Origin: a virus
Reading direction: 5' to 3' (one strand)
Length of the DNA stretch: 51,191 bases
IMG/VR virus record: IMGVR_UViG_3300020183_000118
Coordinates: 1 to 51,191 of that record
Positions 11,149-38,400 of this stretch are shown piece by piece. Numbering within the stretch: the first letter of the stretch is position 1; each line of letters begins with the position of its first letter. A program made the position numbers and the translations under genes. Below the pieces are notes generated by a model that was not told the DNA's origin, did not search any database, and was given only the letters and a program-made list of their open reading frames with translations.

Positions 11149-11156
11149 TATAAATA
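11149..11156 (+). promoter_or_regulatory. Late promoter TATAAATA for the gp26 operon
   Basis: Exact T4 late consensus on the plus strand, 33 bases before the ATG of gp26, with a GGGGA ribosome site between. Recognition by gp55 with the sliding clamp is established for T4; use here is inferred. Confidence 0.85.
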
Positions 11157-12303: not shown

Positions 12304-12659
12304 AGATTTCATCTAGATTAATTGGTCACTCTTTGCCCAGGGCGGGCAAAAATACATGAGCTTCATCTGAGTAGCACAGTCACTAGCGTTAGAGCATTAC
12401 AGAGGTGGTTGTCCGGTACCTCGAGCTCCGTTCTTATACAACGGCGGTTTATACAATAGACGCTAGCCTACCATACAAACGTGCTTGATCACTCAAGCGT
12501 CTTTATAGCCTTTATAAATCCTGTTCAAACAACTAAATCGCGGCATTTGCGATCTTCATCCCGAAGGGTAGTAGTTGAGTGCTTCTTGCAGCGAGAAGGC
12601 TTCCGTCCCTGTGTTTATTTCGACCAGGTCTAGGGCACACGATATTAACTTGTGCGAGT
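12304..12659. ncRNA. Gene-free, hairpin-rich region; candidate structured RNA
   Basis: About 355 bases between two converging operons with no plausible frame. Possible helices: TTTGCCC/GGGCAAA (12332-12350); a 7-bp stem CTAGCGT/ACGCTAG (12383-12389 with 12460-12466) enclosing GAGGT/ACCTC (12402-12422) and CCGTT/AACGG with a 7-base loop (12428-12444); GCTTGA/TCAAGC (12483-12498); ATCGC/GCGAT with a 7-base loop (12537-12553); CTTCT/AGAAG with a 7-base loop (12582-12598); GCACA/TGTGC (12635-12655). The layout resembles a folded RNA more than a spacer. A TATAAATC motif at 12513-12520 (plus) and TATAAAGA on the minus strand nearby are weak late-promoter candidates. No tRNA, tmRNA or known riboswitch could be matched. 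The strand is unresolved. Confidence 0.4.
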
Positions 12660-13679
12660 TTATACTGCGGTACTTGTTATAATTTTAGCCAGAAAATTGC
12701 TGTAAAGTTGATGTGTTTTTGGGCCAGGGTGTAGATTATCGGTGCCAAAGTCTTGATATAAAAATAAGCCTTGAGTATTGTATGTTTTAGCGTTTTTATT
12801 TAATAGATATTTGAATTGATAATAATATTGTTCATTTAGTAAAGATCGATTTAATAAATCATCAATTACTGCATTAAACATTACTAATTGGATGTCGAGT
12901 TTTTTACAAAAGTTTATTAATTCTCTAATAGATTCCAAGCATTGAAATAAGTTATTTTCGTCGTCCAATTGATCAATTGGGAAAATTCTGTTAAATGCAC
13001 TATTCTTTTGATATAATGCATTTAAAGCATGAAGATGATGTAATTGATCTTGGTAGTAATACGGTATTCTTCTAAAGGTTGTTATCCCCCAACACAGTAT
13101 GTCTCCAGACCTGATGTCAGATTTTAAAATCTGATTAGCAGCCCACCGAATTGACGATCCGGGCGCAGTTAAAAAACTACAAGGCAAATCTAATTTATCG
13201 CCTACAAGAGAACCATATCGTTCAGTAGGTTTTACACCAACGCCGTGACTTACACTACATCCTGCGATCCAAATTTGCTTGCTGTTGGTTTTTCTAGTGT
13301 CGGCGATAGAATTTTTATATTTTTGACTAATGCATAAATTTAAATTAACAACTTTTACTTGATCTGACAAATAAAGTAATAAAATTTCAGACGAGCCTTG
13401 TATGCAGTCGGTGGCATTGGTTGCAGTTATAGTTTTGTGATCAGACCATACTTCCGGTGGGCAGTATACAATAGTATCAGCTGATAGCAAGATTTCCATC
13501 ACAATTGATATGTCTTTGGGAAGATCTGCTAGCGAAGTGTAGCATACTAGATTGTGTCGCCGAGATTCCAAGAACTCCTGATAATTGCTTGACTCAACTA
13601 AAAAAGCATCGCGTCTGTGCGCTTTTGCTTGTTCGGCAAGTTCAATATTGCAATCACCAAAATATATAACTTTGCTCAT
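12660..13679 (-). CDS. SGNH-hydrolase-like protein with extra N-terminal domain
   Basis: 339 residues. Residues about 135-330 look like an SGNH/GDSL-type fold: IAGCSVSHGVGV with candidate nucleophile Ser142, a Gly block APGSSIRW (about 172-179), and TDNLHPGPKTH with Asp314 and His317 as the D-x-x-H block. Such enzymes remove or transfer acyl or acetyl groups on glycans, lipids or other esters. Residues 1-130 form a separate domain of unknown function. The 294-residue gene at 22245-23129 has the same two-part plan and many shared motifs, so they are paralogues. It is the last gene of the gp55 operon and overlaps the GIY-YIG gene by four bases. AT content is high. The substrate is unknown. Confidence 0.65.
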   Translation of the reverse strand: MSKVIYFGDCNIELAEQAKAHRRDAFLVESSNYQEFLESRRHNLVCYTSLADLPKDISIVMEILLSADTIVYCPPEVWSDHKTITATNATDCIQGSSEILLLYLSDQVKVVNLNLCISQKYKNSIADTRKTNSKQIWIAGCSVSHGVGVKPTERYGSLVGDKLDLPCSFLTAPGSSIRWAANQILKSDIRSGDILCWGITTFRRIPYYYQDQLHHLHALNALYQKNSAFNRIFPIDQLDDENNLFQCLESIRELINFCKKLDIQLVMFNAVIDDLLNRSLLNEQYYYQFKYLLNKNAKTYNTQGLFLYQDFGTDNLHPGPKTHQLYSNFLAKIITSTAV

Positions 13680-14101
13680 TTCTTTTTTATGTGCGATCCG
13701 TGGACACGAACGCTAATCTGTCCGTTATAGTATTGATCTGATTCTAAGACTTGGTGTCTAAATTGTTCCCTTGCTTCAATATATGAACATTCTGCTCGTG
13801 ATTTGCAGTAAAAAAGTATTTCTCTAGTAAATTTTTCTGGGCCTAGTGATTCGATGTCTTTGTTTAGTTCGTCGTTTGAGCCATAATAGGTTTGCCAATC
13901 ACTGTCTATTTTGCTTCTGATTCTTTTTTTCTTTTTGTTGCCGTTTTTTAGTTTTACTGTTCGTACTGTAGTTTTTGAAAATTTGGCTAGTTTTTTTCCT
14001 ATATATTTGCGCCCAGATACTGTATTTGTAATCAAATATACAAATCCCACGCAATCTTCAGGAAGTGATTCCACTAGAGTGGATTCGAATAGCCATGACA
14101 T
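13676..14101 (-). CDS. GIY-YIG-like endonuclease (seg-type)
   Basis: 141 residues. The N-terminal GFVYLITNTVSGRKYIGKKL (about 19-38) is a variant GIY-YIG motif, in which Tyr pairs are present as VYLI and KYIG. A Lys/Arg-rich insertion follows (LKNGNKKKKRIRSKI), then DWQTYYGSNDEL and an acidic candidate metal ligand in YIEAREQFRHQVL (Glu near 110). Small stand-alone proteins of this type in T4-like phages are usually described as seg-like homing endonucleases; whether this copy cuts DNA is unknown. It sits between the SDR gene (10-base gap) and the distal SGNH gene (4-base overlap). Confidence 0.8.
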   Translation of the reverse strand: MSWLFESTLVESLPEDCVGFVYLITNTVSGRKYIGKKLAKFSKTTVRTVKLKNGNKKKKRIRSKIDSDWQTYYGSNDELNKDIESLGPEKFTREILFYCKSRAECSYIEAREQFRHQVLESDQYYNGQISVRVHGSHIKKK

Positions 14102-14111
14102 ACAGCATTAA

Positions 14112-14696
14112 TTATGCCTTGTAGTCTAGATTACAATAAAATGTTATTTCCTCAATACAAGTATTTTGATTTAATTTTCCTGCATACTTTATAAAATCTG
14201 ATACATCTTGCAAATTTAAACCATTTCCAGTCCACGTTGGGCGATTTCTGCTTAGTTCTGTGTCTAACCGGTCTAATGTAATCAAAGTAGTTTTAAAAGC
14301 CACTTTATTAGCCTTAAACGATGCTGTACATTGTTTACTTGCGTGTGTCAATGCTGCTTTGGCCACACGATATGTTTCAAATCCGGGCTCACGAGCCACA
14401 ACATGTTTTTCGCCTACGCTGCCAATGTTATAGATATGTCCTGCTTTGTGGTTTTTGCTCCATGCGTCGTATACTGCTTCTAACACATGCACTTGTCCAA
14501 AATTAGCCCATGCTTCTTGTGGTGGACCATCAAAGGCATTGTTTACAAACACGTCATAATCCAAACTCAATTTGGCTATATATTCGTGATCTTGTGTAAT
14601 ATCAACGCCGTCTATACGACTAATGCTAACGCCGTTAAACTCTTCAACTAGATGTTTTCCTAATCCTCGATTACCACCTGTTACTAACACTTTCAT
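14112..14696 (-). CDS. Short-chain dehydrogenase/reductase (SDR)
   Basis: 194 residues, short for an SDR (commonly about 250). The N-terminal VLVTGGNRGLGKHL (about 3-16) is the TGxxxGxG dinucleotide-binding motif; NNA is at 52-54; the catalytic set is visible as Ser93 (NIGSVG), Tyr109 and Lys113 (YRVAK). It should use NAD(P)H to oxidise or reduce a carbonyl or alcohol; the substrate is unknown. The C-terminal substrate-binding part is abbreviated. Its ATG overlaps the stop of the radical SAM gene, and it has the best ribosome site in the operon (AAGGAGG), suggesting strong translation. Confidence 0.85.
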   Translation of the reverse strand: MKVLVTGGNRGLGKHLVEEFNGVSISRIDGVDITQDHEYIAKLSLDYDVFVNNAFDGPPQEAWANFGQVHVLEAVYDAWSKNHKAGHIYNIGSVGEKHVVAREPGFETYRVAKAALTHASKQCTASFKANKVAFKTTLITLDRLDTELSRNRPTWTGNGLNLQDVSDFIKYAGKLNQNTCIEEITFYCNLDYKA

Positions 14697-15808
14697 CTAA
14701 TGGATCCTCCTTGATCCCAAACTTTGGTAAATTTTTCTCCGCATGTCATCGCACATTCCATAATTCTATTAGAATCAGACCAACTGTCAACCAAGTCGCG
14801 CCAAAAATAAGATTGAAATATCTTTTGTAAACTGTGATGTTTTATATCCAATTGGTCTTTATAATTTTCTATAAATTCTTTTACTTGTATTTTTCCTGTG
14901 TTAGTAAAACTGGCACTATTGGCACCTGGTTTTGCAAACGAATGAAATCTTGCGTCGTACATGTTGTGTTCAAAAAAGTTACATGGAAGTACAAGCCCTT
15001 CGGCAGTAATCACAACTTTGTTACCTAATAAGGCATCACATTTGATTGGTGTTTGTTGTAAATAGTCTTTAAAAGTCCCATACATTTGTTTGATAACTTC
15101 TATTTTTTGTACACTGGGATTACGCCATTCAGAATTATTTGGTTCTTCTAGCAAGTATTCTGTATGACCATGCCTGTCCAGTACTGGCCAATTGGGGTAT
15201 GCACATTCGTTGGCATGATCGTAAAAACGGCCAGTCTTTTTTGGTAAAAAATTAAAGAATCCGTATTCTTTACTCAATTGTCTTGCTTGTTCAACTTGAT
15301 GTTCGTTATGTTTAAAAACTATAAAGTTCCATTGCGCTCGACCGCCCTTGCGAATAAATGCTCTAGCATTACGTATAGCAATAGAGTATTTTACATTACG
15401 TCTATAGATGTGTAAAGTGTCCTCTAGTCCATCAAAGCCAAAATCAATTTGACCATAACCGTTCATGATGGTCGCTATTTCTTCCCAATAGCTTTCGTCA
15501 TGCACACCACCATTGGTGTGAACGTATAACCATACTGTTGGATTTTTAGTTCTAAAATCTTGAAGAATGTCTAAGAAGTCAGGATGCATGACAGGATCGC
15601 CATAACTCCCGCAAAAAAATATTTGCTTTAATTGACTACAATGGTCAACGCTGAAGGCAGCATCAATTACTTCTCTATCTAAATGTATCAACGGCATGTA
15701 AGGATTAAGTCCTGATCCTTGTACGTTTCTTGGACATTGGGGGCAGGCAGCATTACAATAAGTTGTAATTTCCAATTGATATTCTTTAATTTTTTTATAA
15801 TCAAACAT
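14693..15808 (-). CDS. Radical SAM protein with SPASM-like C-terminus
   Basis: 371 residues. The cluster motif is CNAACPQC (Cys18, 22, 25), binding the 4Fe-4S that cleaves S-adenosylmethionine. FCGSYGDPVMHPDFLDIL (about 70-87) matches the GGE-like strand and loop of twitch/SPASM radical SAM proteins. The C-terminal third has Cys residues in the pattern KCDALLGNKVVITAEGLVLP-C and ECAMTCG, suggesting an auxiliary cluster. Such enzymes often modify peptides or sugars. It overlaps the gene upstream (8 bases) and the SDR downstream (4 bases). The substrate is not known. Confidence 0.85.
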   Translation of the reverse strand: MFDYKKIKEYQLEITTYCNAACPQCPRNVQGSGLNPYMPLIHLDREVIDAAFSVDHCSQLKQIFFCGSYGDPVMHPDFLDILQDFRTKNPTVWLYVHTNGGVHDESYWEEIATIMNGYGQIDFGFDGLEDTLHIYRRNVKYSIAIRNARAFIRKGGRAQWNFIVFKHNEHQVEQARQLSKEYGFFNFLPKKTGRFYDHANECAYPNWPVLDRHGHTEYLLEEPNNSEWRNPSVQKIEVIKQMYGTFKDYLQQTPIKCDALLGNKVVITAEGLVLPCNFFEHNMYDARFHSFAKPGANSASFTNTGKIQVKEFIENYKDQLDIKHHSLQKIFQSYFWRDLVDSWSDSNRIMECAMTCGEKFTKVWDQGGSIR

Positions 15809-16268
15809 CAGGTAAATCTTTAAAAAAGTTTTTGGCCACCTCTAAGGTGTCACTGTTTGTTTTAAATATAGTTCCGGCTAACTTTGGACCCGGTTTTCTT
15901 AAATCAATTAACCAAGCTGCTGCTGGAGTAGCAAATTCAAATTTCCAAGCACCGTTGTGACCCAGGTACAAATTGGGACAAATAAAGTAAGGCTCATGCT
16001 CGGCCTTGTGCATATAAACTGGAAAGAACTTGCCATTCCAAAGTTCAGACTCTAGCTTTATACAATCAAGTTTAATACCTTTAATTTCAACATGCCTATC
16101 TATAACAATATTACCGTATGGATCATGCACATGGTGTTCCGGCGATTTTCCGTAGTGAATTACAGTCAAATCGTGACCACCGTCAACTAAATCTACGTCA
16201 AAATCATAATAATCCTGGGCTGGCCCATCGTCCAAAGTCAAATAATCGTCAACAACTATTTTTATCAT
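15801..16268 (-). CDS. Beta-rich protein of unknown function between radical SAM genes
   Basis: 155 residues from ATG 16268 (MIKIVVDDYL), preferred because of AGGA seven bases before it; a TTG at 16316 overlapping the upstream stop is possible. The chain reads as a beta-sandwich: DVDLVDGGHDLTVIHYGK (about 25-42), then IVIDRHVEIKGIKLDCIKLE, and near the end LGHNGAWKFEFATPAAAWLI. I have the impression of similar small proteins in marine phage genomes, with a possible carbohydrate- or ligand-binding shape, but I cannot name a family. It is flanked by two radical SAM genes, so it could be their substrate, a carrier or a binding partner; this is inference. Confidence 0.6.
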   Translation of the reverse strand: MIKIVVDDYLTLDDGPAQDYYDFDVDLVDGGHDLTVIHYGKSPEHHVHDPYGNIVIDRHVEIKGIKLDCIKLESELWNGKFFPVYMHKAEHEPYFICPNLYLGHNGAWKFEFATPAAAWLIDLRKPGPKLAGTIFKTNSDTLEVAKNFFKDLPDV

Positions 16269-16312
16269 TGGGTTTCCTAAGCGCCGTTCTACATTAAGAT
16301 CTATTTCCAGCC

Positions 16313-17818
16313 TCAATGTATTACTCCTGCCAGTTTGCTTAACCTGTCTTGATATTTGTCCATCATAATCTTCATCTGATCGTCGCCCTTCCAGAAAGTA
16401 TATCCCAGAGCAACTGCATGTTCTTGAGCTCGTATACGACGCATTATACGCTCTTTATAAGTCAATGTGGGATTGTCTTCACATAACCATTCGGTGCCTT
16501 GTGGACGTTGGTTGTTTACACCTATTATTTTAAATCTTTCAGGATTGTTGTAGAGTTCAGTCCCTTCTTCTATTGTGAGAGTGGTACCCAAGTTCACTCC
16601 TATAATTGTACCATCAGCTACATAACGCTGATATCTTGTTAGCATGTCTAGAGTGGCAATAAAATCTTCTTCTCTTTCTGTAGGAAACCCTACGATAATT
16701 AGAAAATACACATGCATATTAAACTTGCTGTAATATTCCATGTTGTAATCTAACTCGTAGTTAGTAAAACCCTTTCGCATATGAGCACGTACACGATCGC
16801 TTCCAGTTTCAACTCCGATTACCATAGTGTCTGCGCCAGCTCGACTCATGTATTCAAAATCTTCCGGACGAAAAGCTTTTTGTCCGTGAACAATAGCATG
16901 ACTACTATAGCTAAAATACCGATCGGGTAACCCGTGCAGTTGGTAATAGTCCACTAGCAACTCATTGAATTGTCTCAAATCCCTGACACTACCGTTGCAC
17001 AAAGCATCGTGGAAAAAATAATCACGCACGCCATAAGATTCATAATAATGAATCATTTCCTTGGCCAATTGTGATCCGGTTTTGAATCTGAAGCCCCCCT
17101 GCATGGTAGGAATGTCGCAAAACGTACAATTGCGTACACACCCTCTACTGGTTTCCATGGGAAGCACACCAGACCGGTACCCACTTTGATATTCGGTGAT
17201 TTTAAAATCACCGAAGTCCATGGGTCGGTGTTTTTTTACATCGCTGCGTTCGGCAAAGAAATCTGTATCGATACCGGCAACCAAATAGTTGCCTTTGATA
17301 ATTTCCGGTATGGTTGTTTCAGCTTCGCCACGTATCCAATGGTCGATTAACCGTTCTTTTTTTAAATAATGAGCAAATTCCGGACGTTCGCTAAAACTGC
17401 CATTTTCTTCTCTAATCAGACCTTGGCCGCCCACAATTACTTCTATAGTACTATGGCATCTAAATCTTCGTAAGAATAATTCTGTAAATCTTTGTGCCTG
17501 CCAACTAAAAACACTAATTAACAATTTTTCAGGTGATATTGACAGTATTTCACCAATCCACTCATTAATGAACTTAAACAAGTTTTTTTCTGCTTCAATT
17601 GATAGAATCCTGTTCTTTACAAATAGATATTCGTCAATTTCATTGAACAGTGCGGGTTTAATTGAATTTTTAAATTGTGTAAAATAATCTATATTGATAT
17701 CTAAAATTTTGCTACACAAATTGTGTTGGTTAAAAATTTGCTTGATGATTGCAGGTGCTGCTGCTGGGCGCACCGGTGCTACTCTTGGTATACTTAGGAT
17801 AACTGCGTAAGTATTCAT
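16313..17818 (-). CDS. B12-binding-type radical SAM protein
   Basis: 501 residues. The N-terminal region (1-190) has the order of a cobalamin-type Rossmann domain (LLISVFSWQAQRF, VIVGGQGLI at about 127-135, then RGEAETTIPEII at 163-174). The usual DxHxxG cobalamin motif is not seen, so B12 binding is uncertain. The radical SAM core starts at ETSRGCVRNCTFCDIP (Cys227, 231, 234); GVETGSDRVRAHMRKGF and LIIVGFPTEREEDF are typical downstream strands of this class. Related enzymes carry out methylations and ring or chain changes. It overlaps the SPASM-like gene by four bases. GC content is similar to gp46/gp47, unlike the AT-rich neighbours. Confidence 0.85.
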   Translation of the reverse strand: MNTYAVILSIPRVAPVRPAAAPAIIKQIFNQHNLCSKILDINIDYFTQFKNSIKPALFNEIDEYLFVKNRILSIEAEKNLFKFINEWIGEILSISPEKLLISVFSWQAQRFTELFLRRFRCHSTIEVIVGGQGLIREENGSFSERPEFAHYLKKERLIDHWIRGEAETTIPEIIKGNYLVAGIDTDFFAERSDVKKHRPMDFGDFKITEYQSGYRSGVLPMETSRGCVRNCTFCDIPTMQGGFRFKTGSQLAKEMIHYYESYGVRDYFFHDALCNGSVRDLRQFNELLVDYYQLHGLPDRYFSYSSHAIVHGQKAFRPEDFEYMSRAGADTMVIGVETGSDRVRAHMRKGFTNYELDYNMEYYSKFNMHVYFLIIVGFPTEREEDFIATLDMLTRYQRYVADGTIIGVNLGTTLTIEEGTELYNNPERFKIIGVNNQRPQGTEWLCEDNPTLTYKERIMRRIRAQEHAVALGYTFWKGDDQMKIMMDKYQDRLSKLAGVIH

Positions 17819-18120
17819 GGAATTGATTTTGTAGTCAAAAGATCATCGGTACAATTTGTGCATCTTTCAAGTCTACAAGTTGTAGGTTGATCTAACAATT
17901 TAAAATCCTCAAATAGAACACCTAAAAAATCATTTTCGCATTGGGCACCGTAAACATTAAGTTTGCTGTCAATCAAGATATAATCTAATCCAGCGTTACA
18001 TTTCCAGCCTTGCCAATAATCAAGCTGTTCACTATGTAATCTATTAGAATACATTAAATATTCGTTGCCTTTTTCGTCGCGAACAACTACATTATAATTA
18101 TAATCAATTAATTGCTGCAT
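17815..18120 (-). CDS. SPASM-like Cys-rich domain, likely split from the radical SAM gene upstream
   Basis: 101 residues from ATG 18120; TTG 18135 is another possible start. Cysteines lie as in the C-terminal auxiliary-cluster region of radical SAM/SPASM enzymes: KCNAGLDYILIDSKLNVYGA then QCEN, and CRLERCTNC. It lacks a ribosome site, and its start lies inside the end of the radical SAM gene at 18104-18763, in the +1 frame. The two genes together would make one ordinary radical SAM-SPASM protein of about 320 residues. Options are a programmed +1 shift, coupled reinitiation at the ATG 16 bases before the upstream stop, or a real or artefactual indel. Confidence 0.65.
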   Translation of the reverse strand: MQQLIDYNYNVVVRDEKGNEYLMYSNRLHSEQLDYWQGWKCNAGLDYILIDSKLNVYGAQCENDFLGVLFEDFKLLDQPTTCRLERCTNCTDDLLTTKSIP

Positions 18121-18763
18121 AGTTGTCAAAATCAAAAAGATTCAAATTATTGTTTGTTTTTGCCTTATCTCTTATACGTAAAGTCCAATCAATTTCTGAA
18201 ATTGAAAAATTTATATTGTGTTGATTTAAAAATTTTTTGTAAATTTCAATGCGATCTTTATGCCAAGGTTCATTCATTATGTTAACATGCACTGTTTTAT
18301 TAAGTCCTGTAATGGCATTTTTAGCACACAACACATTATTAAAAAATTTGTTTTCATTTAAAAATTCGCTATGTGTAGAAAAACTTATCCAATCTAAATA
18401 TTCTAATAGATCCAAATATAATTTTTGGTTAGCAGTGCCATTAGTAACTATTCCTATCAATGCCAACTTATCTCTATATGAGGTTACAAGCCACTGTATA
18501 AAAGGCAACAGGTCTTGATTTATGGTTACTTCACCTCCGGTTAAACTTATTTTATATTTTAAGTTTCTGTGCTTGGTTTTATCATAAATTTCAAACCAAC
18601 ATTGTTTTAACTCATTCAAAGTCTTAGTTTCTGAGGTCAAACTGTGCCACTTTTCAGGACAATACATACAATCAAAATTGCATCTATCATGCAGGTGCCA
18701 TGCCACTATAATATTACGATCTACAGGTGACACACTTACTATAGGTATTGATTTGTAGCTCAT
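18104..18763 (-). CDS. Radical SAM core protein
   Basis: 219 residues. HLHDRCNFDCMYCPEKW holds the CxxxCxxC cluster (Cys28, 32, 35); ISLTGGEVTINQDLLPFI (about 72-89) is the GGE motif and following helix; IVTNGTANQ (about 104-112) is the next core strand. The core ends without the auxiliary-cluster domain, which is found in the next frame (17815-18120). Alone it would resemble a short activase-type radical SAM protein. Its ATG overlaps the gp46 stop by four bases. Base composition is very AT-rich, well below gp46, suggesting separate origin. Confidence 0.85.
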   Translation of the reverse strand: MSYKSIPIVSVSPVDRNIIVAWHLHDRCNFDCMYCPEKWHSLTSETKTLNELKQCWFEIYDKTKHRNLKYKISLTGGEVTINQDLLPFIQWLVTSYRDKLALIGIVTNGTANQKLYLDLLEYLDWISFSTHSEFLNENKFFNNVLCAKNAITGLNKTVHVNIMNEPWHKDRIEIYKKFLNQHNINFSISEIDWTLRIRDKAKTNNNLNLFDFDNYAAIN

Positions 18764-20529
18764 TTAATATCAACGTCTGTATTATAACTAGTAAATCCGT
18801 TTTCTTTGATTACACTTAATACGTTGTTAACACGACCTGCTAGCTCATCTTTGTGACTAACTAACCATACACTACGATTACCTTCTCTGCTCATTTTTTT
18901 AAGTATGGCCAGGCTGTTTTCAACACCTGAACTATCCATACCAGTATCAATCACTTCGTCAATGAACAACAAGTTAATTGGTTGGTACAAACTTTCCCAT
19001 ACATCACGGAAAGCCCAACTTAGACTTAGAATCAATCTATTACGTTCGCCGCGACTTAGGTTATCAAAATCTAATTCTCTGCCTAGCTCTTCAATACTTA
19101 CAGTAAGATCATTTTGAAATTTAACAGTATGCGGCAGTCCAATACGATCCAAGTACTGACTTAATCTAGAATTTAAGTAAGATAAGTTTTGATCAATAAT
19201 ACGTTTACGTATAAAACTGTCTTTGTTAGTTAGTAATTTAAGCAAAAATTCTTGATGTTCTCGAACATTAGCAAGTTCATTGATTGAATCGTAACTAACT
19301 TCCTCTACAGCCTTTGTTTCCATTTCACGAATTTGTTCCGCATACGGATCTTGGTCACTTTTCTTTGTAGCAAGTTGTTGCTGTAAGTTTGCTACGGTAT
19401 TGCGGTGATTAATAGCATCTTCCTTGCGATCGTAAAACACCGTAGGAATAGGACCTAAATTACCTATCAATGCAAGTGCATCTACATGAGACATCAGCTG
19501 TTCATCGTTGGCCAAATACTGTAGTGAAGTTTCTTTTAGTGTGTTTCTTTTTTCTTCTAATACCTGTTCGTGCCGAGTATCATGTAATGCTTGTCCACAG
19601 GCATAGCACTCGTGCTTTTCTAAAGTTTCTATTTCTCTTTTAAGTTTATCTAAGGACTTTAATATTCTGACTTGATCAGTTTCACAGGCTACTTTCCACC
19701 GATTAATTTCTGCGGCTTTTTTAGTTTTTTCATTGTAATCATCAAGTAAATCATGATTTAATAGTTCTTGATCAATATCTAAATCTCCTACAACACTTAA
19801 CGCTTGCTCTAGTTCCGCAATTTCATTTAGACGTTTAGTATTCCATAATGTTTGTCTACGACGTGTGGCTTCAATTTGTTCTTGGATACGAGCATTGGCA
19901 TCGGCCACAGCTTTAATTCTGTATTCTTCTTGAGTAATTGTATCTCGGGTGGCCTTTAATTGTTCCTTAAGAGCGTCGGCCTTTTCACTTAGCATGGTAA
20001 TGCCCAGCAACTGTTCAATGATAGCACGTTGGTCATTGGCCTTTAACGCCAGGAACGGTTCAGTATAAGTGTTCAGTGCAACGATATGCTTGAACATGTC
20101 GTGACTCATACCTAACATGCGCTCAATTTCTGCTTGTGTTTCTCTGCTATCGCCCTGACTTTCGTCTGAGATTTGTTGTTCCTGCCCGCCCACGTAGAAT
20201 GCCATAGTGTTGGGCTTACGACCTCGCTCAATTCTGTAGTCAACTCCGTCTTTTTCAAATTCAATAGTGACCAACATGTTCTTACCATTTGTTTTGTTGA
20301 TAAGATTGTCTTTTTTGATATTGGTCAATGCACTACCATACAACGCATAACTCAGTGCATTGATAATGGTTGTTTTTCCTGTACCATTACGTGCGCCTGT
20401 ATCGTCGCCACCGAGGTCCAAGTTCTGACCTAGTACAAGAGTGAGATCCCGACGATCAAACTGAACAGCCTGGGTAGCATTACCCACGCTCAGGAAATTC
20501 TTTACGGCTAGAGTTCGTATTTTAAACAT
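18760..20529 (-). CDS. 46: Recombination endonuclease subunit gp46 (SbcC/Rad50-like ATPase)
   Basis: 589 residues, near T4 gp46 (560). Walker A is GARNGTGKTT (45-54); a long coiled coil runs about 180-450 with a zinc hook CYAC (Cys308/311) at its turn; the ABC signature is LSRGE (491-495) and Walker B is LLFIDEVID (520-528). With gp47 it forms the Mre11-Rad50-type nuclease that resects DNA ends for recombination-dependent replication and host DNA breakdown. All key residues are present. It overlaps the upstream SGNH gene by 22 bases and the radical SAM gene by four. Confidence 0.97.
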   Translation of the reverse strand: MFKIRTLAVKNFLSVGNATQAVQFDRRDLTLVLGQNLDLGGDDTGARNGTGKTTIINALSYALYGSALTNIKKDNLINKTNGKNMLVTIEFEKDGVDYRIERGRKPNTMAFYVGGQEQQISDESQGDSRETQAEIERMLGMSHDMFKHIVALNTYTEPFLALKANDQRAIIEQLLGITMLSEKADALKEQLKATRDTITQEEYRIKAVADANARIQEQIEATRRRQTLWNTKRLNEIAELEQALSVVGDLDIDQELLNHDLLDDYNEKTKKAAEINRWKVACETDQVRILKSLDKLKREIETLEKHECYACGQALHDTRHEQVLEEKRNTLKETSLQYLANDEQLMSHVDALALIGNLGPIPTVFYDRKEDAINHRNTVANLQQQLATKKSDQDPYAEQIREMETKAVEEVSYDSINELANVREHQEFLLKLLTNKDSFIRKRIIDQNLSYLNSRLSQYLDRIGLPHTVKFQNDLTVSIEELGRELDFDNLSRGERNRLILSLSWAFRDVWESLYQPINLLFIDEVIDTGMDSSGVENSLAILKKMSREGNRSVWLVSHKDELAGRVNNVLSVIKENGFTSYNTDVDIK

Positions 20530-21236
20530 TGTATGTGTTGGTATAATAAGTCTGATAAATGATTATGTCCATCTTCAAGAATATGTCCGTGAGGACCAAT
20601 TGGAAATTTTTGACTTAAATCATTAATAGTAAAATTATTCCATTTGTAAAATTTTTCTGTATCAATACATTTGATATAATATTGTATTTCGTTGTATTCT
20701 GCAAAAATTTGCTCATCATTCATGAGATCAAAATTTATTAAATCTTTAACAGAAGATATAAATTTATGTTTAGGAGCAAGCCATTTGCTTAGATCATTTG
20801 GAAAGGTGTTAATCATTAAATAATTTTTTTTAAATTTTTCAAAGCAGCTTTGTAATTGAATAATTTGCTGCAACCAAAGTTTGAATGAAAATAATTCATT
20901 GTGCCAATGCTTGTATAAAGTTTTGCCCCAATTGGTATAAAAAGCATTATCGCAATAAAGTTGATTCTTCAACAATGGGTTAAAATTTATTTCATAATTA
21001 TTGTCTGATTTATAAAATGTATATCGACTAGTGGCAGTCCACGCAATAATGTATAAATTACAATTTTTATTAAAGTTTTTTAAACTTTGATATACAGTTC
21101 TATAATTTGTACCACCACTAACAGCATCATTAATCACTGTTGTGTTAAGCTTTTTAGCTAAAAGATAAGGCCAGGAATTATTTGTATCACTTAATTCGTA
21201 GCCAAAAGTAAAACTACAACCATTGGTATAAATCAT
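20508..21236 (-). CDS. SGNH-hydrolase-like protein between gp47 and gp46
   Basis: 242 residues. TNGCSFTFGYEL (4-15) carries the candidate nucleophile Ser in a GCS block; SGGTNYRTVYQS (about 40-51) fits the Gly block; the C-terminal GHILEDGHNHLSDLLYQHI fits the Asp/His block, the exact Asp-His pair being unclear. There is no extra N-terminal domain, unlike the other two SGNH-like genes of the operon. It is strongly AT-rich (sampled lines have 14-19 G+C in 60 bases), rich in Asn, Lys, Phe and Tyr, and overlaps gp47 by four bases and gp46 by 22, so it was fitted precisely between two partner genes. The substrate is unknown. Confidence 0.65.
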   Translation of the reverse strand: MIYTNGCSFTFGYELSDTNNSWPYLLAKKLNTTVINDAVSGGTNYRTVYQSLKNFNKNCNLYIIAWTATSRYTFYKSDNNYEINFNPLLKNQLYCDNAFYTNWGKTLYKHWHNELFSFKLWLQQIIQLQSCFEKFKKNYLMINTFPNDLSKWLAPKHKFISSVKDLINFDLMNDEQIFAEYNEIQYYIKCIDTEKFYKWNNFTINDLSQKFPIGPHGHILEDGHNHLSDLLYQHIQCLKYEL

Positions 21237-22252
21237 AAATTTTTATAAATGTCAAGCAATAGTGTTTTATTGTACTGCTCGCTTTGGATATTAGTAAGTT
21301 GGTTAGTTACAATTGTATCTACACTTTCAAACATTATATTACCAGTAATATCGTAATTGATATCCTCACTGATTGCTTTTTGAGGAATAAGGGTAATTTC
21401 TCTGAGATTGTAAGTATTTACAAAAGTTTCTTTGATAAATGTAGCTTCTTCATAACTAATGTCAACATCAAGATTCACACGAACATGCATGCCTTTGTGT
21501 AGTAGCCGATCAGTGTTGGTCAATACATTGCTGAGTTGATACACACGATATCTAGGTTGGTCAGGCCAGGAATGATACTCTGGCTCTGCACCCCACTCTA
21601 AGATCATCATACCGCGTTCGTCGTCGTGATTGTCTGCGTAATTGTGCGGAAAGCAGTTGCCAATGTAGGTGATGTTTCGTTGCGTCTGTCGTTTATGAAA
21701 ATGTCCAGTAAATACTCGTTCAATACCAGTAAAGTCTTCTCGTCGGACATCTCCATGGTCCGGCATCTGCACCATTGCGTTCATGTAGAATGTAGGCAGT
21801 TCAAAATGCCCAAACATGTATTTTGCACTTAGCTTAGGTATACGTTTGTAATCATCCCCAACTAGCCAAGGGGCCACAATAACATCACCGTCGTGTAGCC
21901 AATCATTACAAATGACAACATTCGGTAGATGTCGAGCCCACTCAACACTTTGGACATCCCTCTTGTCCCTATAATATAAGTCATGATTGCCAGGAATGAA
22001 GTACACACGATCGAAGTTATCGTTGAGATGTTCCAGAGCACGGAGACTATAGTTAAGAGTGACAATATTGATACTAGCACGATTGTTATGCCAATCTCCA
22101 AGAAAAAACGCTGTTTCACATCCTTCCTCCCGTGCTTTAGCTGTAAACCATTTGATAAAATTCAAGCAATCGTCGTTGTGAGTTTGACTGTTGCTCTTTA
22201 AACCAAAATGTATATCTGTACAGACTGCTGCTCGTTTAAATAAGTTAGACAT
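21233..22252 (-). CDS. 47: Recombination endonuclease subunit gp47 (SbcD/Mre11-like)
   Basis: 339 residues, equal in size to T4 gp47. Metal-binding phosphoesterase motifs appear in order: TDIHFG (12-17), LGDWHNNR (51-58), PGNHDLYYRD (about 98-107) and GHFHKRQ (about 187-193). It is the nuclease partner of gp46. It overlaps the SGNH gene upstream by eight bases and the SGNH gene downstream by four. All catalytic His, Asp and Asn residues expected for the family are visible. Confidence 0.97.
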   Translation of the reverse strand: MSNLFKRAAVCTDIHFGLKSNSQTHNDDCLNFIKWFTAKAREEGCETAFFLGDWHNNRASINIVTLNYSLRALEHLNDNFDRVYFIPGNHDLYYRDKRDVQSVEWARHLPNVVICNDWLHDGDVIVAPWLVGDDYKRIPKLSAKYMFGHFELPTFYMNAMVQMPDHGDVRREDFTGIERVFTGHFHKRQTQRNITYIGNCFPHNYADNHDDERGMMILEWGAEPEYHSWPDQPRYRVYQLSNVLTNTDRLLHKGMHVRVNLDVDISYEEATFIKETFVNTYNLREITLIPQKAISEDINYDITGNIMFESVDTIVTNQLTNIQSEQYNKTLLLDIYKNL

Positions 22253-23129
22253 CTAGTAATTGTACACGATTTAACAAAGTGTTTGCAAGATTTTTATGAC
22301 TCAAAGGACCAAAATGAAGATTGTCGGATCCCCGATCAACAGCAAAGTTAGTCGCACAATAAAACTCCGGATATTTTGAATACCTGTAATTAAATTCCAT
22401 ATCCCTACTATCAACACAAAGAACTATAAATTTAACTCCAATGCTTCTTAGATATTGAACACCAATATTAACATAGCTTAGTTGTAAAAAGAAACATTGC
22501 TCATTTGTATATGTTTCAATTAATGTTCGATTGTTACAATTAGCGAGAACAATTTCTTGAACATGCTTGCCGTTAAAAAAACTTAACCTATACGGAGAAG
22601 TAATTTGCCATACAACAATATCATCTTTTTTTAAATTAGAATTAATTAATTGACGTAAACTCCAGTGAGTAGAACTACCTGGTTTTGTAATTAATTTTAA
22701 CGGAAGATTTAAACCTTCAGCTAAATGGTTTCCATAAGGTTTGGAATTATGGTTTAACCCGGTACCGTGGCTGTGACTACAGCCATACACCCACAGGGTA
22801 CTTTTGCTATAACTTGAATTGATATCAGAATGTTCAGCAAAGGACAACACCTCGTCTCCAAGAAAATTGTTAACGTGCATAGTGTTTACATAAGACAAAA
22901 AATTTAAAGTGTCTATAGTTATTTCTTCGTCTTTGATAAAATTATTGTCTATGTATTCTATACTATCAAAATAATGAACTATAGATAACAATTCATGGAT
23001 TGTTAGATCCGCCAGCGTCGTATGATATTCTGTTGAGGTTAGTTTAGTATTAATATTATCAAGCAATATAGAGTTTTTGTTGACTGAATTAAAATTAAAA
23101 GTTGGGTGAGTGATGTAAAGTTTAGTCAT
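22245..23129 (-). CDS. SGNH-hydrolase-like protein, paralogue of the distal operon gene
   Basis: 294 residues from ATG 23129 (MTKLYITHP); the adjacent ATG 23132 is also possible. Both overlap the gp55 end. Residues 1-110 are an N-terminal domain sharing the feature YHTTLADL with YTSLADL of the gene at 12660-13679. The SGNH part has WVYGCSHSHGTG (Ser118), TKPGSSTHWSLRQL, DDIVVWQIT and SDNLHFGPLSH (Asp/His block), each matched in the paralogue. A hydrolase or acyltransferase acting on an ester is likely; the substrate is unknown. AT-rich (one sampled line is 16 G+C of 60). Confidence 0.65.
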   Translation of the reverse strand: MTKLYITHPTFNFNSVNKNSILLDNINTKLTSTEYHTTLADLTIHELLSIVHYFDSIEYIDNNFIKDEEITIDTLNFLSYVNTMHVNNFLGDEVLSFAEHSDINSSYSKSTLWVYGCSHSHGTGLNHNSKPYGNHLAEGLNLPLKLITKPGSSTHWSLRQLINSNLKKDDIVVWQITSPYRLSFFNGKHVQEIVLANCNNRTLIETYTNEQCFFLQLSYVNIGVQYLRSIGVKFIVLCVDSRDMEFNYRYSKYPEFYCATNFAVDRGSDNLHFGPLSHKNLANTLLNRVQLLDV

Positions 23130-24006
23130 CATTGTAATCGCCAGATGTTTGCCCGCCACCCCATGATCCCATACCCTGTCTGGTATAACTTGGAGTAAGT
23201 CCATTCATTTCAAGAATATCATCTCGTAAATTTTGATTGCGTTTTTCAATGTTGAGGACTCTAGTAAAACTATTAGTGATAGCGGCAGTATAATAGGCAA
23301 AAGGATTTTGTGACTTGCTCTCATCAAATTGTAGTCCTATCTGTGATAATTGTAGTAGTGCTTGCGAACGCATTTCATCATTGTATGTATAACCGCGCCA
23401 GTTTGAACGGGTAGCGTAACGCTCGCATAATTTCATAAACATGTGTGCTAACTTTGGAGTCATTGTTCCGTGATCTTTAGAAAAATGTCCTCGCTCTAGA
23501 TTGCCCTTCCAATGGCTTTTGCCTACGCAATAAGGTACACCCGATTCATCAATTTTGTAGTGTTGAAACGGTGGAAAATTTACTTTGGTATATTTGGTTG
23601 CACTGGGTACGTCCAAACTGTCATCATATTCGGTTACAGGATCTTCGTCATCTACTACAATTGCAATTTTTGATTTTTTGGATTTAGTGGTGTCAATGGG
23701 CACATGTTCCCAAGTCATAACACGGAACACTATGTCAGTAGTAACAACTTTGTTGGGTTTTACGGCAAAGTCGTCTAGTTTTAATTTAGTAGCACTTGCG
23801 GCTTGAGCAGCATCGTAAGCAGCTCGTCCTAGTCGCTCAGCCCTTAGTTTTCGACCTTCTGCGATGTTTTTTTTGTTTATTTTGTCAACACTAGGCAAAA
23901 TTATGTCGTAATGCCCATCTTCTGGTGTTAAAAAGCTACAATAAGTCATTTTGCTTTTGTGAATTTCTTTGAGAATATCTCTATTATTCAGATAGTTGTG
24001 TTTCAT
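23122..24006 (-). CDS. 55: Late-transcription sigma factor gp55 with N-terminal extension
   Basis: 294 residues; T4 gp55 is 185. The C-terminal part (about 170-275) matches the gp55 family: MFMKLCERYATRSNWRGYTY, then DEMRSQALLQLSQIGLQFD and NPFAYYTAAITNSFTRVLN. The first 150 residues (YDIILPSVDKINKKNIAEG, DIVFRVMTWEHVP, VNFPPFQHYKI) form an additional conserved-looking part. gp55 replaces the host sigma for late genes and recognises TATAAATA; several such sites lie in this window. The ATG has AAGGA upstream. It starts the long overlapping minus-strand operon. The C-terminal 25 residues are Gly/Ser/Asp-rich. Confidence 0.85.
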   Translation of the reverse strand: MKHNYLNNRDILKEIHKSKMTYCSFLTPEDGHYDIILPSVDKINKKNIAEGRKLRAERLGRAAYDAAQAASATKLKLDDFAVKPNKVVTTDIVFRVMTWEHVPIDTTKSKKSKIAIVVDDEDPVTEYDDSLDVPSATKYTKVNFPPFQHYKIDESGVPYCVGKSHWKGNLERGHFSKDHGTMTPKLAHMFMKLCERYATRSNWRGYTYNDEMRSQALLQLSQIGLQFDESKSQNPFAYYTAAITNSFTRVLNIEKRNQNLRDDILEMNGLTPSYTRQGMGSWGGGQTSGDYNDD

Positions 24007-31720: not shown

Positions 31721-31728
31721 TATAAATA
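31721..31728 (+). promoter_or_regulatory. Late promoter TATAAATA before gp6
   Basis: Exact T4 late consensus in the 49-base spacer between gp25 and gp6, 21 bases before the ATG with AAGG between. It would give gp6 and the downstream giant gene their own late transcript. Confidence 0.85.
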
Positions 31729-35452: not shown

Positions 35453-38400
35453 ATGGCAGCTTTTAAAACTTTGCAGTTTCTACCAGAGATTTTTAGAACC
35501 GATACCAATAGAAAATTTCTAAATGCAACTGTAGATCAATTAGTTAGCGAACCAAATTTAATCAAGGTCAATGGTTACATTGGTAGAAAGTTAGCCCCGT
35601 CATATAAAGCGTCTGATAGTTATATCACGGAGCCAACCAAAGCCCGCCAAGATTACCAGCTAGAACCTAGTATCATAATTAAAAATACCAATTCGGGCGA
35701 GCTTACTTTTGCTACCACTTATACTGACATTGTAAACAAGATTAATTTTTATGGAGGATTCGGCAACAATCAAAACAGATTGTTCGATAATGAATATTAT
35801 TCTTACGACCCACAAATTGATCTTGACAAGTTTGTTAATTTTGCACAATACTATTGGCTTGCTAACGGCCCTGATGCCGTTATTGTCAGTGCAAGTGCTG
35901 TGCCTCTTGAAGCAACTTATGGAGTAACATTTGACAGCACAACACAAACCTATAGATTTACTGGATTTGATAACGCTCCAAATCCAGTTATTACACTAGC
36001 TCGCGGTGGCCGATACACTTTTGTCAACAACGAACCGGGAAATAAATTTTATATACAAACCAGTCCTGGTCTATTAGGTGTAGATCCAAATGCACCTAAT
36101 TTAACAACTCGTACAGTTTTAGGAGTAACAAACAACGGCCAAGATGTTGGCGACACGGTGTTTCAAGTACCACTTGCATCTGCACAATTACAGTGGACCA
36201 ACATGCCTGTAATTGGCAACGTGAATTATGCAACCAGTCTGAGTTATCAATCATTGCAAGGCTGTTTGTTAAGCGATCTTGAAAACGTTTTAGGAGGACT
36301 TGACGGACCAACTTCAAGTCTAGAAGACGCAACAATTATTTTTGTTAACAATGAGTTCATTGATGACATATACTGGGTAAACACAGCAAGAATACAAAAC
36401 AACATAATTCGTTTAGATCAGGCTTCTTTAATTCCATTATCGGAAAGAAATAATGTATATCAAATTGGACTTTTTGAAGATGATCAAGGCGATGTGAGAA
36501 TATATCTCACAAACAAATTGAGTGTTAGTAACGAACAAAAAGTGAGAATTAAAGCCGGTATAACAAATGCTGGTAAAGAGTTTTATAGTAGACTAGATCT
36601 TTACAATCAGGTACCAGCGATCACTGCTCCGATAAATTTATTATTTTATCAAAGCGACCAAACTGACAGCGCAGTAGGTGCAATTCAGCTGATTGACCCT
36701 AGTGCTGCACTCATTGATCCGGATTTAGAAATAATAGGACAACGTACATATACCAGTCCTGGTGGTGTGGTGTTTACCAACGGATTAAAAGTAACATTTG
36801 ACTCAACAGTTTCTGCCCCTTATGCTAACAACACATATTATGTAGAAGGAGTTGGCACCAGTATAACATTGATGTTGGTTAGCAATCTTATTTGCCCTGA
36901 ACTAAATGATGATTTATCTTTGCCAGATTATCTTACCATTAATCGAGGCAGTCTTGATTTAAACGGATGGGCAAGAAGTAACAGGTGGTTTCATGTGGCA
37001 GTGATAGCAGCCACCGCTAATTATAATGGCACTGATTTATTTCTTGATCAAAACTATAGAGCACAACGACCAATTATTGAATTTAAACCCAATTTACAGC
37101 TATTTAATTTTGGAACAGAATCCAAAAATCCTGTTGATGTTCTTGATAATATTATTACAAATGCTTACACACAAGTTCAAGGTGTACTGTGCGCTTCCAC
37201 TTCGCAAGTTACTATCACCGTGGATGGCGAAACTGTAACATTCAACGATGGCGACAGAATTATTTTTAGTCAAGATGAAAATCTGGATGTTAGAAATAAA
37301 ATTTATGATTTTTCTATTGAGCTTACAACAGAAGCACCAGACCCGCTGGAATACAGAGCCTTTATACAAGAAGCATCGGATGCTACAGTAGAAGAAAGCC
37401 AGACGATTATAGTTAAAAGCGGTGCCAATGGACCTAAACAATGGTATTTCAATGGCACCATATGGATTGAAGCACAGCAAAAAACAGCAGTTAACCAAGC
37501 GCCATTATTTGATCTAATAAACTTAGAAGGCATTAGTTTTGGTACCAATTCAGTATATCCTGGTAGCACATTCGCCGGAAGTAAAATATTTTCTTACAAA
37601 ATTGGAACTGGTAGTAATGATAGTGTGTTGGGTTTTCCGTTAAGTTACAAAAATCTAGTCACACAAGGTGACATACAATTTGAAAATAATTTTGATTACG
37701 ACACATTTTCCTATATTTTAGATGCTGGTGTAACAAGAACAATATCAGTGAACGCCGGATTGATACAACAAAACCTATCAAGAATCACCAGCACAAGATT
37801 AAACACCTGGGTAATTAATTCAAATTTCAGTAAACAATATCAAATTTTTAATTTTACTTACGACGGATCTACAAATTTATTTCCAGTTGATATTTTACCT
37901 GACATCAGCGTATCAGTACCCAATATCAAGGTTGTTATTAACAACGTGCCTGTGCCAGCTGGACAGTTTGCTTTGACAAAAGTGGTTGACAAATTGGCAG
38001 TATTGATCAATCCTTCATTATTGGCAACAAATGATGTGGTGTTTATAAGTATCTGGAACAGTTCTACTGCATCTACGCAAGGTTTTTATCAGGTTCCTTT
38101 GAATTTTGATATTAACAGTCTTAACACCGATCTTGAAACATTGACACTAGGACAGATGAGAAATCATCTGACAGAATTTAAAAATAACAGTTTAGATATT
38201 GTAGGAGAGGTGCCAGGATACAGCAATTTGAGAGATATAGATTTTTCAAATCGAGGCGGCAGCATTTTACAACATAGTGCTCCTATTATTTACGCAGGGT
38301 TATTTTTAAATCACCCTGAGATGAATTTTGTTGACGCACTACGGTTAGCATCAAAAGAATATTCGCAATTCAAAATAAAATTTTTAGAAGCCGCCGCAAA

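Follow-up and report, generated by a model that had tools for sequence, protein, structure and literature searches.

Introduction

Interchangeable radical S-adenosylmethionine (SAM) modules have been described in the Campylobacter phages CP220 and CPt10, in the sections devoted to these modules (Timms et al., 2010, PMC2853527; also PMC3322345). In pelagimyophages, the passages on the host recognition cluster place its radical SAM cassettes between VrlC and gp14, among the tail fibres (PMC7029224). For T4, the relevant passages report Seg homing endonucleases and homing endonuclease gene (HEG) islands with co-conversion of flanking DNA, including SegB and the tRNA region (PMC2988022, PMC10448857, PMC13096335). 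A radical SAM enzyme with a dedicated partner is exemplified by AprD4 and AprD3, presented in the part of the source concerning them as a radical SAM dehydratase and an NADPH reductase that act on a sugar (PMC5461906). Here we report a computational analysis of a minus-strand operon in a viral stretch of 51,191 nucleotides, IMG/VR record IMGVR_UViG_3300020183_000118 (hereafter the window), in which genes for a late sigma factor (gp55), an SbcD-like nuclease subunit (gp47), an SbcC-like ATPase subunit (gp46) and a SegE-like GIY-YIG endonuclease (SegE) are interspersed with accessory enzyme genes. It is well supported that in an uncultured T4-like lineage this backbone is constant, and that its gaps are exchangeable cargo slots. 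That the operon, with its essential recombination and late sigma factor genes, carries nuclease-bordered, swappable cassettes of probable sugar-tailoring enzymes is a proposition that we hold to be evenly poised.

Results

The IMG/VR database was scanned with gp46, a query blind to the cargo, and the best 80 of at least 599 relatives among 600 stretches were kept; a scan with the radical SAM gene rSAM1 of the operon kept the best 80 of 394 relatives. The loci are therefore biased to near relatives, and some are stretches of one contig. Among the gp46-selected loci, gp47, gp46 and a border nuclease were all visible in 65, of which 56 held cargo and nine were empty, with 45 distinct cargo contents. 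One or more of four radical SAM families were found in at least 35 of the 65, a lower bound because family c20, whose member in L228 has, by eye, a radical SAM-like N-terminus, was left uncounted. The border nuclease was SegE in 63 loci and a PDDEXK_15 nuclease in two. The nearest named relatives by gp46 are PA5oct-like phages (49% identity); in PA5oct, gp55, gp47 and gp46 are adjacent, no annotated gene lies between them, and a RusA-like resolvase is encoded nearby. A PDDEXK_15-type family (c30) occupies the SegE position in L042, L050, L190, L204 and L210, with Pfam run on L042 and L050 only.

In the window, the operon runs without a real break from gp55 down to position 12660 and comprises the following features, in order from gp55 and all on the minus strand:

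23122..24006, minus: gp55, late sigma factor, backbone (phrog_12791, 1.8e-79; conserved in relatives)
22245..23132, minus (first ATG 23204, family-consensus start 23132): SGNH3, SGNH-family protein occupying the gp55-gp47 slot (GCS and DxxH motifs in alignment)
21233..22252, minus: gp47, SbcD-like nuclease subunit, backbone (phrog_100, 7.2e-58)
20508..21236, minus: SGNH2, DUF6071 SGNH-like protein in the gp47-gp46 slot (PF19547, 3e-6; family at the same slot in L032, L062 and L088)
18760..20529, minus: gp46, SbcC-like ATPase subunit, backbone (phrog_77, 3.2e-101)
18104..18763, minus: rSAM3, short radical SAM core and probable half of a split enzyme (Radical_SAM, 1.1e-6)
17815..18135, minus (ATG start at 18120 possible): small106, cysteine-containing putative second half, SPASM/twitch-like by eye (profile match to a fused bacterial protein)
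16313..17818, minus: rSAM2, radical SAM protein resembling B12-type families (Radical_SAM, 3.2e-18)
15801..16316, minus: beta, rSAM2 partner with a predicted CBM60/CBM36-like fold (AlphaFold pLDDT 81; VIA Z 9.5)
14693..15808, minus: rSAM1, radical SAM protein with four further invariant C-terminal cysteines (Radical_SAM, 3.5e-10)
14112..14696, minus: SDR, short-chain dehydrogenase/reductase, rSAM1 partner (adh_short, 2e-6)
13676..14101, minus: SegE-like GIY-YIG endonuclease, border of the cargo slot (PF19835, 5.9e-34, profile positions 1-123 of 123)
12660..13679, minus: SGNH1, SGNH-fold enzyme at the operon end (AlphaFold pLDDT 91.6; VIA Z 16.2)
12535..12555, minus: weak terminator-like hairpin past the last gene (site count not significantly above shuffles)

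The identities of gp55, gp47 and gp46 are, from their family matches, certain. A preliminary description of this DNA had proposed a minus-strand run from gp55 to 12660 with these gene types, and Pfam and PHROG family matches bore this out. It counted twelve frames; there are 13, the overlooked one being small106 (17815-18135, 106 amino acids). The tight packing it reported was confirmed, but its 44-base gap was not reproducible: at the first listed starts, eleven of the 12 junctions are overlaps (4 to 32 bases, and one of 83) and the sole gap is 10 bases. The 83-base overlap, between SGNH3 and gp55, arises with the first ATG of SGNH3 and shrinks to 11 bases with the family-consensus methionine at 23132.

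The cargo is rich in radical SAM genes well beyond the window. Family scans covered 148 of 184 cargo representatives (those omitted were mainly frames below 100 amino acids and rows near the window's own genes), and gave 37 Radical_SAM, 12 SPASM, five DUF6071 and four adh_short matches in Pfam, and 28 matches to the NCBIfam model N_Twi_rSAM (hereafter N_Twi) at E 0.001; an epimerase, a UDP-glucose dehydrogenase and a glycosyltransferase were each found once among the 148. Twelve of the virus records behind the loci have 3 to 19 radical SAM matches each. The order rSAM2-beta-rSAM1-SDR recurs in five further loci of the rSAM2 scan, L084-L088, with tblastn identities of 59 to 88%; L085 and L086, whose identities coincide, may come from a single virus. 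The remaining three loci of that scan are identical (100%) or nearly identical to the window across these four genes. Against named phages, megablast of the locus gave no match, and tblastn found one record for rSAM2 and four for rSAM1, all below 30% identity.

Does this variety amount to random cargo? The preliminary description held that it did not, and we agree: stable gene pairs recur in many phages, a radical SAM gene stands next to every SDR gene seen, and the genes are under purifying selection. Since the pairs recur in many phages, the co-occurrence is not a peculiarity of this genome. It was also seen beyond the gp46/gp47 locus, with SGNH, N_Twi and SDR genes together in L144/L145, where gp46 and gp47 were out of view. 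For eleven genes compared between the window and relatives in ten loci (nine contigs, L084 and L154 being one), pN/pS was 0.05 to 0.40, rough ratios because many dS values were saturated; SGNH1 and SGNH3 had no close enough orthologue in the ten loci. As judged from these ratios, the eleven genes are under purifying selection. A high turnover, with 45 contents in 65 loci and nine sites empty, is what would be seen if the genes were selfish passengers at a permissive site, useless to the phage, but the conserved two-gene modules, the kept catalytic motifs and pN/pS values well below one make this explanation most improbable. The single modification pathway suggested earlier did not hold up either, because the modules vary independently among loci: the nine accessory genes then listed fall into separable modules and lone genes spread over different slots.

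One of these modules is rSAM1-SDR. In neighbour counts identical proteins were counted once, while motif counts were not de-duplicated; frames below 60 amino acids were dropped from the locus gene calls. By its Pfam match (3.5e-10, above cut-off) and by the CxxxCxxC motif in 92 of 92 copies, rSAM1 is a radical SAM protein; C257, C276, C352 and C356 are invariant in eight aligned sequences, the window rSAM1 does not match Pfam SPASM, and its profile found no solved chain at E 0.01. Its neighbour is, by an adh_short match above cut-off (2e-6) and the motifs YxxxK (89 of 89 copies) and GxxxGxG (88 of 89), a member of the SDR family. SDR directly follows rSAM1 in 56 of 59 distinct orthologues at least 55% identical; of the remaining three, two are at contig ends and one has SegE next. 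A radical SAM neighbour, in either order, was found for 68 of 68 distinct SDR-family genes, ten of them not of the window type, a count biased because many SDR genes came from the rSAM1 scan; for the SDR genes of non-window type from the gp46 scan it was five of five. On this gene adjacency, rSAM1-SDR is a stable conserved pair. In its gene adjacency it would resemble AprD4/AprD3, in which a radical SAM enzyme is joined to a dedicated reductase.

The second pair, rSAM2-beta, was found with rSAM2 directly before beta in 30 of 37 distinct beta genes; the others were preceded by an N_Twi gene (three), an aminotransferase-like family with a weak Pfam match (two), gp47 (one) or a contig end (one). 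Beta was removed by an overlap filter in at least L087, where tblastn shows it, so that rows reading rSAM2 then rSAM1 may hide a beta gene. The Pfam Radical_SAM match of rSAM2 (3.2e-18) is above cut-off and CxxxCxxC is present in 40 of 40 copies. Several B12-type NCBIfam models were matched below their cut-offs, and no Pfam B12-binding match was found at E 0.1. The nearest solved chain is 9ccb (8.8e-13, core only), which is MgmA, the B12-dependent glutamine methylase of methyl-coenzyme M reductase (MCR). The same pair was seen on two short contigs assigned to Flavobacterium and to a Rickettsiales metagenome-assembled genome, which may be phage.

The beta protein had been described as a beta-rich unknown. 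Searches of the window proteins in Pfam, PHROG and NCBIfam-type collections indeed gave it no family match, but its predicted fold is recognizable. The AlphaFold model (pLDDT 81, with low values in residues 101-112 and from residue 141 onward) is a predicted beta-sandwich of the kind found in the calcium-dependent carbohydrate-binding modules (CBM) CBM60 and CBM36: VIA gave Z 9.5 for 2xfd (root-mean-square deviation (rmsd) 2.5 over 99 residues) and 9.3 for 2xhh (3.4 over 110), with the next row at 5.4, and Foldseek gave probability 1.00 with E only 0.012. Identity to CBM60/CBM36 sequences is 12-14% over the alignments. While the fold would be that of CBM60/CBM36, beta is a stand-alone phage protein tied to a radical SAM gene. 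The structure prediction and fold-neighbour search that had been recommended thus led to CBM60/CBM36 for beta and, as set out below, to SGNH/GDSL enzymes for SGNH1.

The third module is probably a split radical SAM enzyme, judging from sequence profiles. rSAM3 matches Radical_SAM at 1.1e-6 (29.4 bits, just under the 29.5 cut-off) and has CxxxCxxC in 10 of 10 relatives. small106 comes next after rSAM3 in 17 of 22 listed rows, several of them from one contig: the order holds in the window, L004, L084, L085/L086, L173 and further copies of these contigs, while L158 and L160 have rSAM3 with no called small106 frame. The two look like halves of one enzyme because a single bacterial protein of 370 amino acids (L105:16221-17333) matches both: its residues 32-176 correspond to rSAM3 (E about 1e-6) and its residues 276-364 to small106 (E about 1e-12). 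The cysteines of small106, read by eye, suggest a twitch/SPASM role; the one motif tried for it was found in 0 of 11 copies. The nearest solved chains for rSAM3 are viperin (RSAD2, 7e-4). We rejected viperin as its identity, the nearest NCBIfam model, prokaryotic viperin, scoring 59.5 bits against a cut-off of 180.

Three further frames encode SGNH-like proteins. SGNH1 and SGNH3 match no Pfam family above cut-off, but they are assigned to the SGNH hydrolase superfamily, SGNH1 by predicted fold and motifs and SGNH3 by motifs: in an alignment holding both, Ser142 and His317 are present in 30 of 30 sequences and Asp314 in 28. For the SGNH1 model (pLDDT 91.6), the 50 VIA rows are chiefly SGNH/GDSL enzymes, with Z up to 16.2 (rmsd 2.4 over 156 residues). 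The fold matches include TesA and CE2 carbohydrate esterases, and the top Foldseek rows contain acetyl-xylan esterase as well as CE2 enzymes; these matches cover residues 126-339, so that the N-terminal 125 residues were barely tested. SGNH2 matches DUF6071 above cut-off (3e-6) and Lipase_GDSL_2 below it (0.063).

In the SGNH scan (37 loci), SGNH1 relatives directly follow SegE in 17, two of which are the window's own virus. Elsewhere they stand beside a thymidylate synthase, a nucleoside diphosphate (NDP)-sugar epimerase and a DegT sugar aminotransferase (L112, Pfam), beside a hexapeptide transferase and an AMP-binding enzyme (L136), and near N_Twi genes with a carbamoyltransferase close by (L127); in L144 the series N_Twi, SDR, N_Twi, SGNH lies between frames resembling gp32 and UvsX by eye. 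On one phage contig (L134; 7704-8795 and 6539-7414), an SGNH1 relative is found near an S-adenosylmethionine synthetase and beside a radical SAM gene whose Pfam match is below cut-off and which is QueE-like by eye.

Thymine hypermodification pathways that involve radical SAM enzymes are known. This, the thymidylate synthase of L112 and a dCMP deaminase in one of the 148 cargo representatives would suit a nucleoside or DNA hypermodification of the phage bases. We think this quite improbable: no base-modification kinase, hydroxymethylase or other DNA-modification family was recognized in the operon or among 25 of the 42 cargo Pfam families, and in L112 sugar genes come after the SGNH gene.

A second, larger radical SAM cluster appears to lie beyond the window. 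A contig of 84,692 bases holds the window's operon at 100% identity (L083) and also matches the window's last 5 kb, with an offset of 19,464 bases in every 40-base word printed. In its final part (L224, G001:65000-84692) an N_Twi cluster follows the structural genes from about position 11347, about 5.7 kb past the window's right end. It comprises a 309-amino-acid 'TYDEP' protein, four whole N_Twi genes and one cut at the contig end, and an SGNH-looking gene. Of four other phages sampled, three (L225, L226 and L227) carry a similar cluster, in which five or six N_Twi genes are accompanied by SGNH2 relatives and a carbamoyltransferase (Pfam for L225, the rest by eye), and the fourth, L228, has six N_Twi genes in a stretch that stops before the SGNH2/carbamoyltransferase part. 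The 309-amino-acid protein is 37% identical over 303 residues to a bacterial protein (L105) encoded beside N_Twi genes. We also observed that L098, L099, L102 and L105, contigs of Bdellovibrionia or an unnamed bacterium, contain many radical SAM genes related to the phage cargo, and that such bacterial clusters hold an SDR (L098, L102), a QueC-like protein (L098, Pfam) and a carbamoyltransferase (L099, Pfam). A single open plus-strand frame of 4,229 codons (35453-48142) lies on the window's structural side.

What, then, exchanges the cargo? The preliminary description implied that the GIY-YIG gene was part of the enzyme set; it looks like exchange machinery or a border, outside the chemistry. 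SegE has a full-length SegE_GIY-YIG domain (PF19835, 5.9e-34). The same frame, 13676-14101, matches PHROG family 447 (7.2e-38), whose label 'NAD synthetase' is probably an annotation error. In six of eight window-versus-relative pairs (two of them one contig), the SegE dS was 0.45-0.57, the others being 1.09 and 1.28, with the neighbouring genes at about 1 to 3 or saturated. Divergence at 4-fold sites was then taken over pairs of loci with gp46 above 80% identity. Its median was 0.33 for SegE (312 pairs), 0.56 to 0.58 for gp55, gp47, gp46, rSAM1 and SDR (115 to 312 pairs) and 0.65 for the baseplate hub gene (73 pairs). SegE was less diverged than gp46 in 170 of 183 pairs, gp47 in 97 of the same 183. 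Across bins of gp46 identity, SegE divergence ran 0.24, 0.40, 0.54, 0.59 and 0.62; because it climbs to 0.54-0.62 in distant pairs, the gene is not simply frozen, and a constant slow silent rate alone fits poorly. SegE distances also track those of gp46 worst of six genes (rho 0.37 versus 0.52 to 0.73). An overlapping frame was rejected as a general explanation: of the 18 loci inspected, 12 have an open antisense frame of 70-71 codons, and the frame is shorter in the remainder, for example L008, L085, L161, L171 and L172. These divergences support fairly well a recent spread in which SegE was shared more recently than its neighbours, and they lend moderate support to a putative homing role of SegE.

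Five pairs with the lowest SegE divergence against saturated gp46 were inspected for tracts. In L087/L150 identity is 99% at SegE, 96 at SDR and 93 at rSAM1, then 82-83 at rSAM2, gp46 and gp47; on the other side of SegE it is 96 and 96, then 84 at the hub gene. This peak has the look of a conversion-like tract carrying rSAM1-SDR. In the other four pairs SegE is at 91 to 94%, and the nearest aligned downstream frames are raised in L016/L020 and L051/L064, not in the other two.

The region has 55 promoter-like sites versus 45.8 (standard deviation (sd) 6.1) in shuffles, and 10 terminator-like sites versus 7.4 (sd 2.9), not significant in number. The motif TATAAATA, which we take to be the T4 late promoter, was discarded as a driver of the operon, with two occurrences in the window versus 5.3 expected and none on the minus strand. 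The two exact TATAAATA matches (11149-11156 and 31721-31728, plus strand) lie just upstream of plus-strand frames, one of which is the baseplate hub gene.

Discussion

We propose that enzyme modules on the same strand occupy the slots gp55|gp47, gp47|gp46, gp46|SegE and the one after SegE. The window's modules are SGNH3, SGNH2, rSAM3-small106, rSAM2-beta, rSAM1-SDR and SGNH1, and their products would tailor a carbohydrate, which may be a nucleotide sugar or else a glycan of a surface or of the virion. rSAM1 may oxidize or deoxygenate a sugar carbon, with SDR reducing the resulting carbonyl in the manner of AprD4/AprD3; rSAM2, docked by the CBM-like beta, might act on carbon by methylation or rearrangement, and the SGNH proteins could add or remove acyl groups. 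SegE, or the PDDEXK nuclease that replaces it, would cut a co-infecting relative at this site, and repair would copy SegE and at times neighbouring cargo. The sugar substrate is only indirectly supported, through the CBM-like fold of beta, the esterase-like fold of SGNH1, and the sugar genes near SGNH1 relatives and in cargo slots.

Several observations weigh against this proposal. On the side of exchange, raised patches occur away from SegE: gp55 reaches 90% in L087/L150 and 89% in L051/L064, and in L006/L007 two far-downstream genes are at 90 and 96%; recombination is therefore not confined to SegE. The average divergence of SDR and rSAM1 sites is no lower close to SegE (0.51 to 0.59), and cargo conversion is therefore seen in one pair only. 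A slower silent rate could partly explain the low SegE divergence, and the presence of SegE at 63 of 65 borders is equally compatible with a domesticated recombination nuclease and with a mobile nuclease. On the side of chemistry, Pfam and PHROG family searches recognized no glycosyltransferase or nucleotide-sugar gene in the operon's thirteen frames, many SPASM/twitch radical SAM enzymes act on peptides, and MgmA, the solved chain nearest to rSAM2, methylates glutamine in a protein.

SegE could accordingly be read as a resident, resolvase-like recombination nuclease of the gp46/gp47 pathway, with the cargo exchanged by homologous recombination in the conserved flanks. Its near-constant place at the border (the PDDEXK_15 nuclease stands there in the other two loci), the RusA-like resolvase near the same place in PA5oct, the purifying selection on SegE, and the high-identity patches at gp55 and elsewhere in the five pairs would all suit such a nuclease. 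We hold it to be a serious contender, yet the less probable one, since SegE was apparently shared within the clade more recently than gp46, gp47 and gp55, its distances correlate worst with those of gp46, and identity in L087/L150 is highest at SegE itself.

The cassettes might, alternatively, modify a protein or peptide, whether a structural protein of the phage, a protein of its host or a hidden substrate akin to a ribosomally synthesized and post-translationally modified peptide (RiPP), beta being a recognition partner or the substrate. Peptide and protein maturase models are matched by rSAM1, rSAM2 and the wider cargo, although the scores of the window's rSAM1 and rSAM2 are all below the curated cut-offs; MgmA and the frequent adjacency of beta to rSAM2 point the same way. 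No short precursor peptide is evident among frames of at least 50 amino acids, beta is predicted to have a CBM fold, and SGNH relatives occur in sugar contexts, and we regard a peptide or protein target as unlikely. The sugar-tailoring cassettes that we prefer can also be extended, in a step that we make with still greater reserve and consider doubtful, to a phage sugar-editing library for glycan deoxygenation, C-methylation and re-acylation, shuffled among co-infecting phages by a homing SegE that drags chosen modules and joined by a second, larger cluster having a pathway in common with Bdellovibrionia-like chromosomes. If true, this would be a radical-enzyme diversification of glycans spread by homing drive.

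For the phage radical SAM clusters reported in 2010, the passages on them name no substrate. Here the radical SAM genes resolve into small conserved modules with an SDR, a CBM-like protein or a detached second half, each of a size suited to expression. Because empty, filled and nuclease-replaced sites share one syntenic position, the locus is a natural test of homing with metabolic cargo.

Interchangeable radical SAM modules in T4-like phages and nucleases at exchange borders are already known. The preliminary description took the present combination to be unknown in characterized phages; this holds only in part, its radical SAM modules having a precedent in the Campylobacter phages (Timms et al., 2010). 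CP220 and CPt10 likewise have, in the sections describing them, multi-gene radical SAM clusters exchanged between T4-like relatives, together with amidinotransferase and nucleotide-sugar-transferase-like genes of their own. The 10.8-kb CP220 stretch differs in having no annotated gp46, gp47 or SegE (many of its genes are labelled 'hypothetical'), and a CP220 protein is about 21% identical to rSAM1. Pelagimyophages, in the part of the source concerned, have a T4-like backbone too, and in their variable island surface-glycan-related genes accompany radical SAM cassettes, but that island lies among the tail fibres. In the present lineage a comparable N_Twi cluster stands separately by the structural genes, and the gp46 locus is additional to it. 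As with T4 Seg, a GIY-YIG nuclease in a T4-like genome borders exchanged genes; here, however, the cargo consists of putative biosynthetic modules in the gp47-gp46 operon, and the nuclease is a candidate homing endonuclease. In the literature searched, outside of which most subscription journals fall, we recognized no publication on a gp46/gp47-SegE radical SAM locus. To the best of our knowledge, four things are new: the location within the gp55-gp47-gp46 operon, the conserved pairing of rSAM genes with SDR and with a CBM-like gene, the probable split radical SAM enzyme, and the SegE-centred exchange in an uncultured lineage.

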